From: Christiangramia crocea
GTDB lineage: Bacteria; Bacteroidota; Bacteroidia; Flavobacteriales; Flavobacteriaceae
DNA: 64,000 bases
Direction of reading: 5' to 3'
Assembly: GCF_022410465.1 (NCBI RefSeq)
Contig: NZ_JAJSON010000008.1
Location: forward strand, 1-64,000
How positions within the stretch are numbered: position 1 is the stretch's first letter; each line of letters starts with the position of its first letter. A program made the position numbers and the translations under genes. This document shows, piece by piece, positions 56,333 to 64,000 of this stretch. The notes beneath the pieces are model-generated. The model was not told the DNA's origin, ran no database searches, and was given only the letters and a program-made list of their open reading frames with translations.

Positions 56333-57047
56333 TATTCTTTTTACGGTACCTCATGTTAAGCATCTCTATGGCTAGAGAGAAGAAGACCGCGAAATAGATA
56401 TAACCCTTAGGCACATGATAATGCGCGCCTTCCACGATAAGCATCACACCTATCAGGATAAGGAATGAAAGGGCGAGTATCTGTATGGTAGGGTGCTGGT
56501 TCACGAATTCCCCTACCGGTTTGGCGAAGATCATCATTACAATTATGGCGACGACCACCGCGATCACCATCAGGATGATCTCATCGGTAAGTCCCACTGC
56601 GGTTAGTATGGAGTCAAAAGAGAATACAAGGTCCAGCAAGACTATCTGTACGATGGCGGTGCTGAAGCTCATGGTCTTGTTTACCTTTTTCCCGGTCTCG
56701 TCTTCCTCATACTGGCCTTCCACCTTATGATGTATCTCCAGGGTAGACTTTACCAGCAGGAAGACACCACCGGCTATGAGGATGATGTCGCGCCAGCTCA
56801 GCTCAAAGTCGGCGACGGTGAGTATGGGTTCTGTAAGGCCAATGATCCAGGCGATACTCAAAAGCAGGAGTATCCTCATGACAAGGGCGATGGTAAGACC
56901 TCCCAGCCGGGCCTTCTTCTGGCTCTCTTCCGGCACTTTTCCGGCTACCAGGGAGATAAAGATGATGTTATCTATTCCAAGTACTATTTCCAGAAAGGTC
57001 AGGGTAAGCAGGGCTACCCAGGTATCGGGCTGTAAGAAGATCTCCAT
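56322..57047 (-). CDS. TerC-family integral membrane protein
   Basis: A 241-residue membrane protein with seven or eight helices, related to TerC and implicated in manganese or tellurite homeostasis. Characteristic acidic membrane motifs: TFLEIVLGIDNIIFISLVAG near the N-terminus and VLLDLVFSFDSILTAVGLT in the middle. ATG 57047 (MEIFLQPDTWVALL) is preferred to the in-frame start at 57083. The region 57073-57115 upstream carries two direct repeats of AAATTATGCAAA, 31 bp apart. Confidence 0.9.
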   Translation of the reverse strand: MEIFLQPDTWVALLTLTFLEIVLGIDNIIFISLVAGKVPEESQKKARLGGLTIALVMRILLLLSIAWIIGLTEPILTVADFELSWRDIILIAGGVFLLVKSTLEIHHKVEGQYEEDETGKKVNKTMSFSTAIVQIVLLDLVFSFDSILTAVGLTDEIILMVIAVVVAIIVMMIFAKPVGEFVNQHPTIQILALSFLILIGVMLIVEGAHYHVPKGYIYFAVFFSLAIEMLNMRYRKKNTSQ

Positions 57048-57072
57048 GTCGAAAATTGGTTGATAAGCCGCT

Positions 57073-57115
57073 AAATTATGCAAAAACCCACGCTTTTCGG
57101 TTAAAATTATGCAAA
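57073..57115. repeat. 12-bp direct repeat upstream of terC
   Basis: AAATTATGCAAA occurs at 57073-57084 and again at 57104-57115. The 31-bp period is three helical turns, which would suit a protein bound to one face of the DNA. It lies directly upstream of the terC start and downstream of the envelope protein gene at 57144. Confidence 0.35.
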
Positions 57116-57143
57116 GGAAGGGAGGGACTTCGGTAAAATACTG

Positions 57144-57629
57144 TTAATCAAAGCCGAACTTAACAGAGACCCCTCCATAGACCGAGACCTGGAAGAAATC
57201 ATAATCGGTGCGCCAGCGCGATTCCCCGCGGGCATAGATAAAAAATCGGTCAAAGTGGTATTCTAACCGGGTGTTGATGGCCAGGGAAGGGTAGGTCTTC
57301 CAGGGGCGGCGTATAAAGGAAAAGCTGAGGTCGGCGACGGGGATAAGCATTTTTCCGGGCCTGAAGACATAACCGGGATTCACACCCATGGACTCGTACC
57401 TGATGGCAGCAAAGGTCTCGTAATAGGCCAGGATGCTGAAACCCGCGTTGCGGTAACCCACGCTCAGGGTACCGTCGTAGGAGGCGTCGTTCACGGTCCC
57501 GCCAAAGATCGCGTTGCGAACGTCCACGCCGGTGCTAACAAAGAAGTAGTCTTCATCGCGGGTAAGCCAGTACTGGGCGAAGCTGTGTGCCGGGAGCAGC
57601 AGTAGAAGAAGGAAGAGAAGTCTTTTCAT
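57144..57629 (-). CDS. Small outer-membrane beta-barrel-like protein
   Basis: A 161-residue exported protein with a clear signal peptide (MKRLLFLLLLLLPAHSFA before QYW). The mature part alternates hydrophobic and polar residues in strands rich in Tyr/Phe (LSVGYRNAGFSILAYYETF, INTRLEYHFDRFFIYARGES) and ends VSVKFGFD, as in outer-membrane barrels with a C-terminal aromatic. Family not recognised; an eight-stranded barrel is a reasonable guess. Confidence 0.7.
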   Translation of the reverse strand: MKRLLFLLLLLLPAHSFAQYWLTRDEDYFFVSTGVDVRNAIFGGTVNDASYDGTLSVGYRNAGFSILAYYETFAAIRYESMGVNPGYVFRPGKMLIPVADLSFSFIRRPWKTYPSLAINTRLEYHFDRFFIYARGESRWRTDYDFFQVSVYGGVSVKFGFD

Positions 57630-57872
57630 TGCACAGGGACCAAATGGGGGCTATTTCGTGTTCATTCTGAAAGGCTTATGAATATACATCATAATTGGGA
57701 ATTGAGAAGCGACAAAATAGAACAACGGTAAAAATATAAATGCCCTGGGATCCTGACAGGTGATATGTATAGGGCTTTAAATCAAATAGTTAAACAGGTT
57801 TATCTTGAGTTTTTCATAGGTTGTCTTCCTTCAATTGACTAAATTGTATGCTTATTTTTTAAATTTTCTCTT

Positions 57873-59183
57873 ATGGACAGACGCAGTTTTTTAAACCGTA
57901 CCGGAATTGCCATGGGGGCAGGGATCGGCCTCCCCGCTCTAAGCGCTTTTGAAAGCATTACTCCCCGGGAGCTAATTGATCGTGATATCCCCGGGAGCTG
58001 GGGCGATCTCAGGGATATGTTCCAGCTGGAACCCGGCAGGATACATATGGCCCTTATGCTGCTGGCTTCCCATCCCCGGCCGGTGCAGAACGCCATCGCC
58101 AGGCACAGGGAAAATTTTGATAATAACCCGGCAGAGTACTGGGAAAGTAATTATATGGCCGCGGAACCCAGGGTGATTGCCGCCGCCGCGGAATATATGA
58201 ATGCCGATCCCTCTGAGGTCGCGCTCACCGATAGCACCACCCAGGGCCTGGGAATATTGTATACGGGCTTTAAACTTAAGGAAGGCGAGGAGATACTTAC
58301 CACCATCCACGACCATTACTCCACCGAAAAATCACTGGAGTTCGGGGCAGAGAGAAGCGGCGCAAAGATCAAGAGGATAGCTCTTTACGATGAGCCCTCT
58401 CAGGTATCGGCCGATGAGGTGCTAAGCAGGATCAAAAAGAACATCACTCCCAAAACCCGGCTTGTGGCGGTTACCTGGGTGCATTCCTGTACCGGGGTGA
58501 AACTGCCCGTAAAGAAGATAAGCGGACTCATTAAGGAATTGAACAGCTCTAGGGCAGAAGAAGAGCGTATCTATTTCGCGGTAGACGGGGTGCATGCCTT
58601 TGGCCTTGACAATATAGACATCCAGGATCTTGGCTGTGACTTTTTAGCGGCCGGCACCCATAAATGGCTGTTTGGTCCACGGGGCACCGGGATCTTATTT
58701 GCGAAGAAAGATGCCCATGACATGGTGGTTCCCGTGATCCCGGCCTTCTCGGCCGCGTACGGGGAATGGCTGGGCGTTGTGCCCAAGGACCAGCTTAACT
58801 TTAGTCATTTGAATTCTCCCGGTGGTTTCCATGCTTTTGAACACCGCTGGTCCCTTGATGAGGCCTTTAAGCTTCATATGAACACGGGCAAGGAAAATAT
58901 CGCCGCGAGGAGCAAAAAGCTGAATACGATGCTTAAGGAAGGCATGAGCGAGATGGCTCATGTGAGATTGCTAACGCCGGTCTCCGACGAATATTCAGAG
59001 GCCATCAACTGCTTTGAAGTGGATGGATTAAGCCCGGGCGAGACGGTACAAAAACTTCATGAAAAGAAGATCATAGCGAGCAGCTCACCTTACCGGAAGA
59101 GCTATGCCAGGCTTACTCCAAGTGTGATCAATACCGAAGAGGAGGTGGAACAATGTCTTAAGGCAATTGAAGAATTGGCGTAA
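57873..59183 (+). CDS. Exported class V aminotransferase-fold PLP enzyme
   Basis: PLP-dependent fold-type I enzyme of 436 residues resembling isopenicillin N epimerase/cysteine desulfurase-like proteins. The N-terminus MDRRSFLNRTGIAMGAG is a twin-arginine signal, so the folded cofactor-loaded enzyme is probably periplasmic. PLP residues: ALTDSTTQGLGILYTG, FAVDGVHAFGLDNIDI (Asp under the ring) and AAGTHKWLFGPRGTG with the Schiff-base Lys. The substrate is unknown. It is a single gene followed by an intrinsic terminator. Confidence 0.88.
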   Translation: MDRRSFLNRTGIAMGAGIGLPALSAFESITPRELIDRDIPGSWGDLRDMFQLEPGRIHMALMLLASHPRPVQNAIARHRENFDNNPAEYWESNYMAAEPRVIAAAAEYMNADPSEVALTDSTTQGLGILYTGFKLKEGEEILTTIHDHYSTEKSLEFGAERSGAKIKRIALYDEPSQVSADEVLSRIKKNITPKTRLVAVTWVHSCTGVKLPVKKISGLIKELNSSRAEEERIYFAVDGVHAFGLDNIDIQDLGCDFLAAGTHKWLFGPRGTGILFAKKDAHDMVVPVIPAFSAAYGEWLGVVPKDQLNFSHLNSPGGFHAFEHRWSLDEAFKLHMNTGKENIAARSKKLNTMLKEGMSEMAHVRLLTPVSDEYSEAINCFEVDGLSPGETVQKLHEKKIIASSSPYRKSYARLTPSVINTEEEVEQCLKAIEELA

Positions 59184-59202
59184 AATTTAATTTTAATATT
59201 GG

Positions 59203-59234
59203 AACCCGGAAGCTGCTGGCTTGCCGGGGTTTCT
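59203..59234 (+). terminator. Intrinsic terminator after the PLP enzyme gene
   Basis: AACCCGGAAGC and GCTTGCCGGGGTT pair around TGCTG with one or two bulged bases, followed by T-rich sequence. It separates the chromosomal block from the AT-rich Gabija element. Confidence 0.7.
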
Positions 59235-59345
59235 TATTCATAGATAACCGCTTTTATGGGCAATTGTTAGTTAAATTGTTGAAAACGATTTTACAGGAAA
59301 GCGTTATAGAATAAAAAAATGGCTGTAGTTTTATAAAAACATCAT

Positions 59346-59406
59346 GTTATGCCACGAATCTCATTGGTAAAGAGAAAAAAATTAGTGGATATAACGAGTT
59401 AGCGTT
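59346..59406. repeat. Upstream attC-like imperfect palindrome of the Gabija element
   Basis: GTTATGCCAC (59346-59355) pairs with GTGGATATAAC (59385-59395) with one extra base, and TCTC/GAGA pair within. Three bases further the element ends GTTAGCGTT (59398-59406), which has the GTT core of an integron recombination junction and is exactly complementary to AACGCTAAC at 62860-62868 downstream of gajB. Confidence 0.55.
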
Positions 59407-59425
59407 CATTTTTCAATAAAATTAG

Positions 59426-61315
59426 ATGTATATATCCAAATTAGAAATAAAGAATTACAAAAATTTTAGAGATTTTGAGATTCAATTAAAGCCCCTAACC
59501 TTAATAATTGGAGAAAATAATATTGGTAAATCGAATTTACTAAACTGTTTAGGTTTAATCTTCAGCCAAGATGTTTCAATATATAAAAAACGAAATCTAG
59601 AAATTTCAGATTTTAATTATGACTGTATATTAAATTATAAAAGAGACGTTCTTAATAATGAAAAACCCATAGAGGAGATTGAATTTCCAGAAATTGAAAT
59701 TGCTGCTACATTAAAGGATTGGAATACTGATCAAGAATCAGTTATAGGTGATTGGTATATAAATGAAGAATTAACAGAAGCTAAACTAACTTACATCTAT
59801 TCTCCTGTTTCTTCATTTAATCAATTAGAAGAGTTACAAAATCAAAGAGATTTCATAAATGCTTTTAAGAAAGATATCGGTGCTGAAAAACTTTCGCAAT
59901 TTTCTGAAAAAGATTTACTTGATTTAATTAATTTCCCCATATCTAAATACTACTATTCAATAATTGGAGGAAATCAAAATGAAACGCAAGCAAACGCTTA
60001 CCATCTTAATCAATTAAAATTTGAACTATTAGATGCTTTAAGAGATGCTAAAACTGAATTATCTGCAAATAACAGAGGCAACCTTTTATTTAGAGTTTTA
60101 AACGCGAAAGAAGAAAACGAATATCAAGACTTAAAAAAACAGTTAGTTGGTTTACAATCATCAATACAAGAAAACACAGCCATTCAGAGTATTATCTCTG
60201 GTATTTCAACTCAATTAGATAAGGTATCATTATCGACTGAAAACTCTAATAATGAAATTGATTTAATCTTCTCGTTGCCAAATGTTGAAGATATTCTAAA
60301 AAAGTTAAGTCTTATTTACGGAGAAAACCCTCTAAAAATTGAACATAATGGAACAGGTCGTAATAATTTACTTTTTATGTCCCTAATCCTATCATACATT
60401 GAAGATCCTAATTCAGCACAAAGTAATTATTTTAGAGTAGTAGGTATTGAAGAACCGGAATCTCATCTACACGCAAATTTACAGAACCATCTAGCTTCCA
60501 ATATAGAATCCTTAATTAAATTAGAGGGTTCAGCAGAATATAGAAAAGATATTCAACTACTATTGACTTCTCATTCAAATCATATTACTACTAAAATAAA
60601 ATTTGAAAGTACTGTGGTTTTATATAATAAAGATGGAAACTTAGCTACTCATTATGTTCTACAAGGATTTTCAACTAATGCAGAAGACACAAAGAGAGTT
60701 AAATATTTAAGAAAGTACTTAGATTCTGAAAATATAAATCTTTTCTATTCCAGAAAAATTGTTTTAGTCGAAGGAATCTCAGAAAAACTCCTATTCCCAG
60801 TATTTTTTGAAATTGAAAAATCCGAAACTATGGATAAATTGAGTACTTGCATAGTTAACGTGAACGGATTAGCTTTTAAAAACTTTTTGGATTTAATAAA
60901 AAACGGATATCATACGAAATGTTTGGTTTTAACGGACAGTGATAGACATACCAAAGCTGAAGATAGAGCTGAGAATTTAGTGAAAGAATACTCTAAATTT
61001 AATGTAATTTCAATTTGCATAAGTTCTGAGTCGACTTTTGAGAAAGATATTATAGCGTGTAATAAGAGTGGTTTAGGGAAAGAAATTTTAATTAAAGTAC
61101 TAAAATTAGTGAGACCAATTTCAGGTAAAACTTACGACGAGGGACTTGGAGAAGATGATATAAATATAGAAGATTACTTTTCTCTTATTGAAAATTTTAA
61201 ATCTGATTTTGCATTTCAATTATCATTGGAGCTACAAGAAAACAATAATGGTTTCATTATTCCTAAATATATAAAATCAGGAATTTCTTTCTTAAATCCT
61301 GAAACAACTGATTAA
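59426..61315 (+). CDS. gajA: Gabija anti-phage protein GajA (OLD-family ATPase-TOPRIM nuclease)
   Basis: DNA-nicking endonuclease of the Gabija defence system, regulated by nucleotide binding. The ABC-type ATPase has Walker A IIGENNIGKSNLLN (residues 28-40), Walker B GIEEPESHLHANLQ (about 340-352) and LLTSHSNHITT as the switch. The C-terminal TOPRIM domain has VLVEGISEKLLFPV (metal Glu, about 445) and LVLTDSDRHTK (DxD, about 501). 629 residues, as in other GajA. AT-rich: a 60-base sample (60361-60420) is 28% GC against 42% for one in the LigD genes. It overlaps gajB by one base. Confidence 0.88.
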   Translation: MYISKLEIKNYKNFRDFEIQLKPLTLIIGENNIGKSNLLNCLGLIFSQDVSIYKKRNLEISDFNYDCILNYKRDVLNNEKPIEEIEFPEIEIAATLKDWNTDQESVIGDWYINEELTEAKLTYIYSPVSSFNQLEELQNQRDFINAFKKDIGAEKLSQFSEKDLLDLINFPISKYYYSIIGGNQNETQANAYHLNQLKFELLDALRDAKTELSANNRGNLLFRVLNAKEENEYQDLKKQLVGLQSSIQENTAIQSIISGISTQLDKVSLSTENSNNEIDLIFSLPNVEDILKKLSLIYGENPLKIEHNGTGRNNLLFMSLILSYIEDPNSAQSNYFRVVGIEEPESHLHANLQNHLASNIESLIKLEGSAEYRKDIQLLLTSHSNHITTKIKFESTVVLYNKDGNLATHYVLQGFSTNAEDTKRVKYLRKYLDSENINLFYSRKIVLVEGISEKLLFPVFFEIEKSETMDKLSTCIVNVNGLAFKNFLDLIKNGYHTKCLVLTDSDRHTKAEDRAENLVKEYSKFNVISICISSESTFEKDIIACNKSGLGKEILIKVLKLVRPISGKTYDEGLGEDDINIEDYFSLIENFKSDFAFQLSLELQENNNGFIIPKYIKSGISFLNPETTD

Positions 61316-62844
61316 TGCTTAAAAAGCCAAAGCTTGTTATTGCTGGTCCTGGTGCCGGAAAAACTTTTGGAATGGTGAATGAAATTATTCATTCATTAAG
61401 TAAGCTGTCTCCAGCAAGGTATATGATTGTAATTACTTATACTAATTCAGCAACTAATAATATCAAAGACAGATTAGCTAAACGCATTCAAATACCACCA
61501 AATTTATTTATTGGAACAATGCATTCCTTTTTAAATAAGTTTATTGTCATTCCTTTCTCTTCTTTCCATAATAATGAAATTAAAGGTGAGAAACTTTTTA
61601 TTCAGTGTCAAACAGATGATATTTTTGAGAAACTAAAAAAGGAATCGGGAAAAACATATGATTTTAAAGTAGCAAATTTCATCAAAAAAAAGATTCGAAT
61701 TTCAATGCAGAAAAACGGCTATATAACTTATGACCAAACTGTCACATTAGCTAAGGAATGTTTTGAGAATAAAAGAATTAAAAGAATTATTTCAAATCGT
61801 ATTCAATATTTATTTGTAGATGAATTTCAAGATACTAGTAATAATATTTTTTATATCATAGATTCAATTAGGAAAGAGAAAATGACTCAAATATATTGTG
61901 TTGGTGATCCCGAACAATATATTCAGAGTTTTGCTTCAACTATTAAAAACTTTAGTAACATCCCCATCTTAAAATCTTCAAAATCCAAATCTTATGAATT
62001 GAGTGTTAATAACTCAAATTACCGCACAACTGAATCTATTACAACTTTTCTTAACAATTTTAATGGTAGAAATTTTGGATCAGTTACTTTCAAGCAAAAT
62101 TGTATTAACAAAAGTGAAAGTGTACCTGTAAAATTTTTAAACGAATTTGAGAATGTCTCAAATTTGGTTCCACCTTTTTTTAGCGAATGCGATAAACTAA
62201 ACATAGGTAATAATGATAGATGTATACTTGCTAAGAAAAATGATATAGTCAGAAGAGTTATCTCTGCTCTAGATGATAATTATATTCCACCTCTAAAAAG
62301 TAATAATCTAAATCCTATTAAGGAGATTATGGCTACACTACTTTCCTCATTGAATTTAAATCAATCTGAATATTTGAAAAAATACAACTCGTCAATTTTT
62401 GATTTAAGAAAAATTTGTATTCAAATATTAAAGAGAATAAAGGATGGTACGATTTATAATGAAAATACTTTTTTTAATTATGTAAGAACGGAATTTGAAT
62501 TAGACATTAAAACTACCGTACCCGTTAAAATTCAAAATCTTAGAATTAATAATTCCACAATTTCCAAAAAAGATGCTGTAGTTGTTTCTAACATACATAA
62601 TTATAAAGGCCTTGAATCTGAAGCAGTTTTAGCTATTGCTAAAACAGAAGAGGAATTACTATTATGGATTGAAACAGATCAAAAAATTAGAGATTCTAAA
62701 AGGAATATAGAAACTACAGATTATCCAAGATTAGGATATGTTGCATTCAGTAGAGCAAGGAAATTATTATGTATTTCCTGCTTAGAGAAAATTTCCAATG
62801 AAACAGAAAAAAAATTAAATGCATTGGATGTTCAAATTATATAA
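61315..62844 (+). CDS. gajB: Gabija anti-phage protein GajB (UvrD-like helicase)
   Basis: Superfamily 1 helicase-like partner of GajA, 509 residues. Motif I is VIAGPGAGKTFGMVNEI (residues 8-24), motif II LFVDEFQDTSNN (about 166-177), motif III GDPEQYIQSF (about 197), and the C-terminal motifs SNIHNYKGLESEAVLAI and GYVAFSRARKLLCIS. In the Gabija model it senses or hydrolyses nucleotides and activates GajA when DNA ends or nucleotide depletion signal phage replication. TAATG overlap with gajA gives coupled translation. The palindrome with attC-like ends begins 16 bp after its stop. Confidence 0.88.
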   Translation: MLKKPKLVIAGPGAGKTFGMVNEIIHSLSKLSPARYMIVITYTNSATNNIKDRLAKRIQIPPNLFIGTMHSFLNKFIVIPFSSFHNNEIKGEKLFIQCQTDDIFEKLKKESGKTYDFKVANFIKKKIRISMQKNGYITYDQTVTLAKECFENKRIKRIISNRIQYLFVDEFQDTSNNIFYIIDSIRKEKMTQIYCVGDPEQYIQSFASTIKNFSNIPILKSSKSKSYELSVNNSNYRTTESITTFLNNFNGRNFGSVTFKQNCINKSESVPVKFLNEFENVSNLVPPFFSECDKLNIGNNDRCILAKKNDIVRRVISALDDNYIPPLKSNNLNPIKEIMATLLSSLNLNQSEYLKKYNSSIFDLRKICIQILKRIKDGTIYNENTFFNYVRTEFELDIKTTVPVKIQNLRINNSTISKKDAVVVSNIHNYKGLESEAVLAIAKTEEELLLWIETDQKIRDSKRNIETTDYPRLGYVAFSRARKLLCISCLEKISNETEKKLNALDVQII

Positions 62845-62859
62845 TAGAAAGAAAAACGA

Positions 62860-62992
62860 AACGCTAACAACGGTTATCACAAATAGCGGGTAACCTTTCA
62901 AAGAAAATAATTAACTTCACCAAAAAACCAGGTCTAAGCCGACAAGTTCGTATCCCTACTCCCGCTACTTGTGTTAACCGAGACCGTTGGCA
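62860..62992. repeat. Downstream attC-like imperfect palindrome of the Gabija element
   Basis: It starts AACGCTAAC (62860-62868) and ends CCGTTGGCA (62984-62992). The inner arms 62874-62890 and 62961-62977 are complementary at 15 of 17 positions; outer AACGG (62869-62873) pairs with CCGTT (62984-62988) with six extra bases on the right side only. A loop of about 70 nt closes it. Arm asymmetry and end boxes resemble an integron attC site. Confidence 0.6.
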
Positions 62993-63033
62993 AATATTTA
63001 AAATGATCCAATTAACGTTTTGAACTTAAAAAA

Positions 63034-63390
63034 TTGAATAAAGTTTTAAAAGTATTATTGATGTGGCTGCCTTCAGTTATAATTAGCCTGTTCTTTATTC
63101 CAAACGCACTGGATAAGATCCTTAACTCTGATCAAATGGATAAAATCGTGACCAATAGTACCATCATGATCAGTACAGGAATTTTCCTTTTGATAGCAAC
63201 AGGATTGTTCCTGTATAATAAAACTATACTCATCGGGACCACGCTCCTGGCTCTCTATATGACTTTTATAGTCTTCATTCATATGTACAAGGGAAAACCA
63301 TATGAGGTTGCAATTTTAATTGTGATGGCCACAATATTTGCCTCTTATATTAGAAAACCCCAATTGTTCTATCAAAAACAGGAATTGTAG
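63034..63390 (+). CDS. Small DoxX-like membrane protein
   Basis: A protein of up to 118 residues with four hydrophobic helices (MWLPSVIISLFFIPNALDKI; IMISTGIFLLIATGLFLY; ILIGTTLLALYMTFIVFIHM; YEVAILIVMATIFASYI). The pattern and the Asn-Ala-x-Asp-Lys-Ile after helix one resemble DoxX-like small membrane proteins; function unknown. TTG 63034 is the longest start; ATG 63061 removes nine residues and begins at the first helix. It lies 41 bp after the downstream palindrome of the Gabija element. Confidence 0.6.
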   Translation: MNKVLKVLLMWLPSVIISLFFIPNALDKILNSDQMDKIVTNSTIMISTGIFLLIATGLFLYNKTILIGTTLLALYMTFIVFIHMYKGKPYEVAILIVMATIFASYIRKPQLFYQKQEL

Positions 63391-63531
63391 ATTGATGATC
63401 AATAAGTTTGATTTGGCAATAGTAAACTAAAACAGGCGATACCGTTAGAAAGAAAAAATTGACCTGGCCAGCAAGCCATTTCTAAGGCATTAACTCGCAA
63501 TAATCGAAACGCTTGGCTGTAATTTAAAAAT

Positions 63532-64000
63532 ATGGATATAGAAAAAATCTTTCAAGACCTGAAGTTTGACTTACAATCGATAAACAGAAGAGCAAATGAA
63601 AGATTGCTAAAAGAAGAACAGATTAGGTCTAGTATTTATTGTTCTCTACGAAACCAGGGGTATATAGTTGCGGCAGAAAGGAATTATGATAAGAATTCAG
63701 AGGTTGAATGCGATTTGGTCTTTTGGGGAAATTCGAAATCAGAATCCTGGATGGAGATAAAAACTGCCAGGTATTCAAAAGCAATAAATGATGTTAGAAA
63801 ATTAGATAAATTCGGGAAGGATAGTTGGAATAACGGAGAAAAAGGTCAATTCAGAAGCTGGAAAAAGGATATTGAAAAATTTGATCTATTAAAAAATAAG
63901 GATGTTGGGAAATACTTTGTTCTTGTAGAACAATGCTTTGATGAATCACTATTTGATAAATTGTATTCACAGGATAGATATGAGATGAAACAGCTTTTCG
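63532..64000 (+). CDS. Hypothetical protein with PD-(D/E)XK-like motif (3' truncated by the window)
   Basis: An open frame from ATG 63532 to the window end (156 codons, no stop). It starts MDIEKIFQDLKFDLQSINRR, then EQIRSSIYCSLRNQGYIVAAE, and has EVECDLVFWGN followed by SWMEIKTARYSKA, the D...ExK arrangement of PD-(D/E)XK nuclease folds. The base composition is AT-rich, like the Gabija genes nearby. Function not known; a nuclease or a restriction-related protein is possible. Confidence 0.55.
   Translation, partial: MDIEKIFQDLKFDLQSINRRANERLLKEEQIRSSIYCSLRNQGYIVAAERNYDKNSEVECDLVFWGNSKSESWMEIKTARYSKAINDVRKLDKFGKDSWNNGEKGQFRSWKKDIEKFDLLKNKDVGKYFVLVEQCFDESLFDKLYSQDRYEMKQLF

Follow-up and report, generated by a model that had tools for sequence, protein, structure and literature searches.

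The gajA and gajB genes of a Christiangramia genome (family Flavobacteriaceae; G000, 3.9 Mb in 32 contigs) encode a predicted Gabija defence system that is, with a probability of about 0.88, carried as a mobile gene cassette of a Flavobacteriaceae integron-like system. The stretch of DNA analysed, referred to here as the window, comprises positions 1-64000 of contig C30 of this genome; the cassette occupies 59399..62986 on its plus strand. In anatomy and in strand logic the system is integron-like, with two defining features failing: because the IntI-specific block of the recombinase and the GTTRRRY box of the sites were both tested and do not hold, it is not classed as a canonical integron. 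This reading is drawn from sequence, namely from the recombination sites, the relation between box and junction, the bias towards bottom-strand folding, the attI, the tie between recombinase and arrays, and the different first cassette found in a relative.

The cassette is 3,588 bp long, running from TTAGCGTT to ...GAGACCG, with G/TT (the slash marks the exchange point) at both ends and complementarity between left box and junction. Its first gene, gajA (59426..61315, +), encodes a 629-residue protein that scores 790.8 bits with PADLOC PDLC00077 and contains the Pfam domains PF13175 (AAA_15) and PF20469 (OLD-like TOPRIM); the second, gajB (61315..62844, +), encodes 509 residues, with PDLC00118 at 488.3 bits and PF00580 (UvrD-helicase). 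Both are full length and stand in the Gabija order, an ATPase with OLD TOPRIM followed by a UvrD-like protein; the first-pass annotation, which was made from the sequence alone and had named a Gabija operon here, was right on this point. Expression and a defensive function of the pair are predicted. Behind gajB lies an attC-like recombination site (62856..62998, +), whose left box ends with AAC at 62868 and whose right box begins with GTT at 62986. Integron cassettes have an attC whose left box pairs with the cassette's own start. Here, AACGCTAAC (62860-62868) is the exact reverse complement of GTTAGCGTT at the upstream junction (59398-59406), as had been noticed at first pass; each occurs once on the plus strand of the window.

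The downstream palindrome is real. Its 20-nt arms are 90% complementary; as bottom-strand DNA it folds with z = -3.25 (0 of 200 shuffles equally good), and as top-strand DNA with z = -1.98 (7 of 200). A leave-one-out hidden Markov model (HMM) built from the eight other sites detects it at E = 2.4e-28, and the sole other match below E 1 in the window (63431-63488, E = 5.6e-8) is the next, decayed site of the array. The R1 model, to whose training set the site belongs, gives it 140.1 bits. When the end of the cassette is joined to its own start, the bottom-strand energy changes from -20.4 to -31.3 kcal/mol. A search of 57000-64000 against Rfam returned nothing up to E 5.

The left boundary is of another kind. 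The imperfect palindrome upstream of gajA had been taken for a second attC-type site; its fold is unremarkable (z = -0.85, equalled by 38 of 200 shuffles), and its sequence is attI-like. The attI-like site spans 59337..59398 (+), with the core GATATAACGAG at 59388-59398 and the exchange point between G59398 and T59399. A position weight matrix was made from 74 distinct recombinase-linked attI, with the window junction outside the training set. Over the 127,820 positions of the two window strands it ranks this site first (score 27.8, with -11.4 for the next); with the arms alone, six window positions score higher. The attI were collected by a TATAAC.AGTT-type pattern, so that their core, unlike the arms, is conserved by construction. 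The full motif, gATATAAC.AG/TTg with TTATCC and GGATAA-like arms ahead of it that run into the end of the gene, lies behind many recombinase genes (22 of the 40 that were fetched, and 55 of the 80 named loci), which places attI beside the recombinase as in integrons. Promoter-like boxes of the consensus TAnnTTTG occur in 53 of 85 attI (shuffle mean 12.2).

The relation between left box and previous junction extends well beyond gajAB. An HMM from nine sites finds 39 matches at E<=0.01 in eight fetched stretches of the Christiangramia genome: 13 on C17, nine on C30, six each on C3 and C6, four on C31 and one on C4, in a single orientation on each contig. For each anchored site, the 14 bases ending at the left-box AAC were compared with up to 9 kb of upstream sequence and the best complement match was sought. 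On C3 all six sites match the previous junction in 11-13 of 14 letters, the first match lying directly behind the recombinase gene. The best match falls at the expected junction for three of six sites on C6 (a fourth ties); four sites on C17 and two on C31 match a detected junction (a third C31 site ties). Among four anchored sites on C30 gajAB is the sole match, and the C4 site has none. Across 40 other genomes, at least 6 of 8 letters agree in 75 of 115 consecutive pairs (shuffle expectation 4.9), a count from which anchorless sites were dropped and which is depressed by sites missed between neighbours. In the complete genome of a relative, G165, the rule holds for 151 of 168 consecutive pairs (shuffles give a mean of 5.0 and a maximum of 12). 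At the eleventh base a near-constant A stands against G, so that the top strand has a C/A mismatch where the bottom strand has a G.T wobble. Complementarity of the left box to its own cassette start, with exchange at G/TT, is an integron property, and the claim that gajAB entered as an integron-like cassette of the Bacteroidota by recombination at G/TT is strongly supported at the level of sequence.

Preferential folding of the bottom strand of an imperfect palindrome, another canonical integron property, is equally general. The bottom strand folds better in 16 of 16 aligned sites of the Christiangramia genome (16 from a set of 17, out of 39), in 165 of 170 sites of G165 as against 55 of 170 random segments of the same region, and in 137 of 150 sites of relatives; 15 of 16 sites share a stem position that is A.C on the top strand and hence G.T on the bottom one. 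RNAalifold finds just seven pairs in these 16 sites. A 20-pair stem was subsequently named by hand from single sites: 75.3% of its cells are paired, compared with at most 40.0% when it is slid by 1-3 columns, and its covariation score lies above all 500 shuffles, which ignore relatedness. Two of five measures for this stem are less clear ('further pair types', 139 of 500; 'pairs changed on both sides', 29 of 500). The right box departs from the canonical attC consensus GTTRRRY, which is present in 23 of 170 G165 sites. The long loop, of at least two sequence types, is conserved across the aligned sites, unlike the variable loop expected of canonical attC, and may have a function of its own. 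Several sites on C17, C3 and C31 (loci L033, L036 and L037) carry the same insert, TCCCGATAGCTATCGGGA, itself palindromic, in the loop between the stems; other sites do not have it.

The arrays are tied to one family of tyrosine recombinases, of which the Christiangramia genome encodes a single dedicated member (C3:16710-17888). This member and the nine site matches of the C30 array, which begins with gajAB and runs to about C30:74,800, dispose of the suggestion that the gajAB palindromes are an orphan attC pair. Recombinases of the C3 type are found in 91 of 149 family genomes (E<=1e-50); phylum-wide, 101 of 395 genomes match at this threshold, with all matches above 340 bits in the Flavobacteriaceae. 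One neighbourhood was taken from each of 40 of the 91 family genomes, picked by score and contig room (0.3-4.7 kb upstream of the gene and 0.2-14.7 kb downstream). All 150 site matches (E<=0.01) lie behind the recombinase gene on its strand; none lies before it or on the other strand. Five of these loci have no sites: L113, L127 and L136 (less than 250 bp left), L123 (1.7 kb) and L122 (13 kb). As this set gave more room to the downstream side, a set of 80 named loci, each with up to 6 kb of flank on either side, is the fairer control. There, with many contigs ending soon after the gene and counts made by hand, 108 of 109 matches (E<=0.001), in 44 of 80 loci, again lie behind the gene on its strand; the exception, in L164, is upstream on the other strand. 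The seed HMM is narrow, since it finds sites in just 12 of the 80 loci. Of the 24 genomes of the genus, 23 contain sites and 23 encode exactly one recombinase; the remaining genome, G168, is 67% complete.

In G165, the recombinase and its attI are accompanied by 171 sites (E<=1e-3) that share a strand and extend across 187 kb, which is 5.4% of the genome; the next 20 kb contain no significant site. Its 168 measured cassettes have a median length of 877 bp, and 140 of them contain exactly one plus-strand open reading frame (ORF) of at least 80 residues; 176 of 191 non-overlapping ORFs of at least 80 residues point the same way. Two alternatives bear on these distributions. The palindromes are intergenic and numerous, have a conserved loop and in some cases carry an inserted palindrome of their own, as would dispersed non-coding repeats or terminators spread between genes. 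That they are such elements, and not recombination sites, is very improbable: each box predicts the previous junction instead of the far end of its own site, the 171 sites of G165 all lie on the same strand, and matches occur only behind one recombinase family. Alternatively, the arrays might be moved by another enzyme, with the C3 protein merely nearby. The genome does encode XerC, XerD and further tyrosine recombinases, including a 447-residue protein (G000:C6:100216-100758, -) about 2.3 kb before the C6 attI. This, too, is improbable, as arrays follow the C3-type recombinase in the sets of 40 and 80 loci and all but one of the 24 genus genomes have exactly one such gene; the C6 protein belongs to the Phage_int_SAM_5 type, with just 31.1 bits to PF00589.

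The C3 recombinase is itself distinctive. The IntI-specific block (about 42-45 residues, near patch III) is absent among the aligned sequences listed, and relative to IntI4 the C3 protein misses about 43 residues. A C-terminal SP(L/V)D is common to the C3-type recombinases and IntI and is not present in the XerC and XerD of the same genome. In the tree, IntI forms a separate clade (100/100). Residues 1-72 (L036:4735-4950) make up an extra N-terminal beta-alpha domain that is confidently predicted. HARP was considered for this domain and rejected: one of 40 members matches PF07443, weakly (E = 7.8e-4), and a fold search barely covered the domain. A canonical IntI/attC integron gained by horizontal transfer would share the site logic, the strand choice and the cassette arrays, as well as SP(L/V)D; in Treponema integrons the integrase gene likewise points towards attI (PMC3607928), and IntI exceeds its cut-off in 105 of 395 phylum genomes. 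This explanation is nevertheless unlikely, given the missing block, the separate IntI clade and the scarcity of GTTRRRY. IntI is also nearly absent from this class in the phylum search, where, among the matches listed, G206 is the sole one above cut-off from the same family, order or class; and 0 of 149 family genomes have IntI above cut-off, in a search in which no control matched.

Several arrays of the Christiangramia genome are headed by attI-like sites. The sequence GATATWACNAGTT occurs exactly five times in the 3.9 Mb, on C30 (gajAB), C31 and C6 and at C4:64072 and C4:99949, and the first four copies each precede a site or array. At G000:C4:99949-99961 (+) the exact core is followed by the start of an ORF, about 1.4 kb from the contig end; an array may extend from there onto a further contig. 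The C3 attI, which belongs to the recombinase itself, and the C17 copy are one base off GATATWACNAGTT, the latter being an 82-bp, 85% match to the end of the recombinase gene plus attI. With the exception of this copy, tblastn found no recombinase remnant ahead of the other platforms in the eight stretches. Exact matches alone are counted, because a one-mismatch pattern gives 31 and 25 matches compared with 27 and 37 for the reversed control. Behind the weaker tier of recombinases (L130-L145) the attI motif is absent, and these seem to have a different attI. In several of the loci L137-L145, an inverted repeat such as AAACACAATTGTGTTT precedes TTG, which suggests a second type of attI.

The locus itself bears traces of turnover. 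Of 24 genus genomes, four have the gene that lies left of the array (57873-59183). Behind this gene, G157 carries an attI-like site and then a first cassette other than gajAB, with a site after it; G151 and G160 carry a peptidase-like gene (labelled by eye) and no attI. A search for an empty site, proposed at first pass, thus yields one relative with another first cassette and two that are scored as arrayless; no exact empty site was found, and the DNA between the left gene and attI does not align. No peptidase-like gene was seen by eye as right neighbour of the C30 array among the ORFs to the contig end; no search was made. Close gajA relatives are found in 3 of 397 family genomes, this one included. 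The other two, G676 and G017, have no sites (nhmmer E<=1; R1 just 12.7 and 11.0 bits), so that Gabija is not an obligate cassette and was probably packaged into one, not born as one. In G017 (L279, C5), an ORF that looks HNH-like by eye directly follows the Gabija pair.

Within the window, gajAB is followed by a second cassette (62987..63530, +) with a 118-residue ORF (63034-63390), whose decayed site (the HMM match at 63431-63488) has no AAC anchor and hence falls outside the box-rule test. A third begins with an ORF (63532..64000, +) of 203 residues, without a Pfam match, that continues past the window end. Later C30 sites have lower scores and a decayed look. Apart from gajAB, 21 of 47 listed ORFs in and around the arrays of this genome were examined for content. 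Defence-like genes include AbiH, first on C31, an OLD/Gabija-like ATPase and a Schlafen-AlbA_2 protein on C3, and a DrmC-like PLD nuclease on C6. Other ORFs encode beta-lactamase-fold hydrolases, an amidohydrolase, a dehydrogenase and a cation exchanger, and some are without a match.

Several observations weigh against the cassette interpretation. The recombinase gene is on another contig (C3) and does not adjoin the gajAB array, and its product lacks a block that is essential in known IntI. Nine of the 39 sites have no AAC anchor and were dropped from the box test; on C30, where the other sites are decayed, this applies to five of nine, and the three other anchored sites miss any detected junction. 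By eye, no promoter-like box is seen in the window's attI. A single weak and partial match to the site (11.8 bits, E = 0.0023) lies further along in G160, which was scored as arrayless, and the nearest gajA relatives elsewhere are not in cassettes.

The proposed mechanism starts with circularisation of the gajAB cassette at its attC-like site. The bottom strand of this site would fold into a hairpin, which the C3-encoded tyrosine recombinase would join to the double-stranded attI-like site at G/TT; the cassette would therefore enter in one orientation, directly behind attI. The same recombinase may serve several attI-like platforms in trans, including that of the window, as none of them has a recombinase gene beside it. 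A wider proposal has odds slightly better than even. It holds that this is a distinct Flavobacteriaceae integron lineage, with about 170 cassettes in one measured array, whose recombinase either lost the IntI-specific block or was always without it, and may read folded attC by its N-terminal domain. The several platforms that one recombinase would serve in trans would have arisen as copies of an attI module some 80 bp long; the arrays would store anti-phage and other accessory genes, and would have escaped notice because integrons are detected with models of IntI and canonical attC.

Integrons have rarely been recorded in this part of the tree. The IntegronFinder 2.0 paper reports a complete Bacteroidetes integron in Salinibacter ruber M1 alone (PMC9024848); elsewhere, Bacteroidota are named among integron-bearing phyla (PMC8618304) and a Tenacibaculum genome is scored integron-free by IntegronFinder (PMC10013915). 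Among the entries listed by literature searches, which left preprints and most subscription papers outside, there is no Flavobacteriaceae integron paper or account of this system, and the branch is apparently undescribed. If the interpretation is correct, the Christiangramia superintegron, with its Gabija, AbiH-, OLD- and DrmC-like genes, is a gene-capture platform for an abundant marine group, perhaps missed by current tools. It also opens a mechanistic question: the IntI insertion is described in PMC8138268 as essential to integron function, yet the site logic persists here without it.

Among known systems, sedentary chromosomal integrons (TIGR02249 IntI) share several features with the arrays described here: one orientation, mostly one-gene cassettes, the box rule, bottom-strand folding, attI beside the recombinase and insertion at G/TT. 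The differences lie in the recombinase, which is without the IntI-specific block and has an extra N-terminal domain, in the sites, with their mostly non-GTTRRRY right box, long conserved loop and extended box pairing, and in the recombinase gene pointing towards attI. Chromosomal integrons of Treponema share this last arrangement, with transcription towards attI in the cassette direction (PMC3607928); they were called with intI and canonical attC, and the likeness is one of description. The Xer proteins (XerA/XerC/XerD) are close by profile and fold: the C3 recombinase scores slightly higher with the XerA profile (218.8 bits) than with TIGR02249 (201 bits, cut-off 265), and its highest structural Z, 23.1, is to the archaeal Xer 4a8e. 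They differ in that the genome's own XerC and XerD branch apart (99/99) and lack SP(L/V)D, and in that 4a8e superposes at 10.4 A compared with 3.7 A for IntI. Gabija, finally, is present in its usual form, with gajA and gajB full length and ordered, and differs in its packaging as a cassette, which the two closest relatives found do not share.

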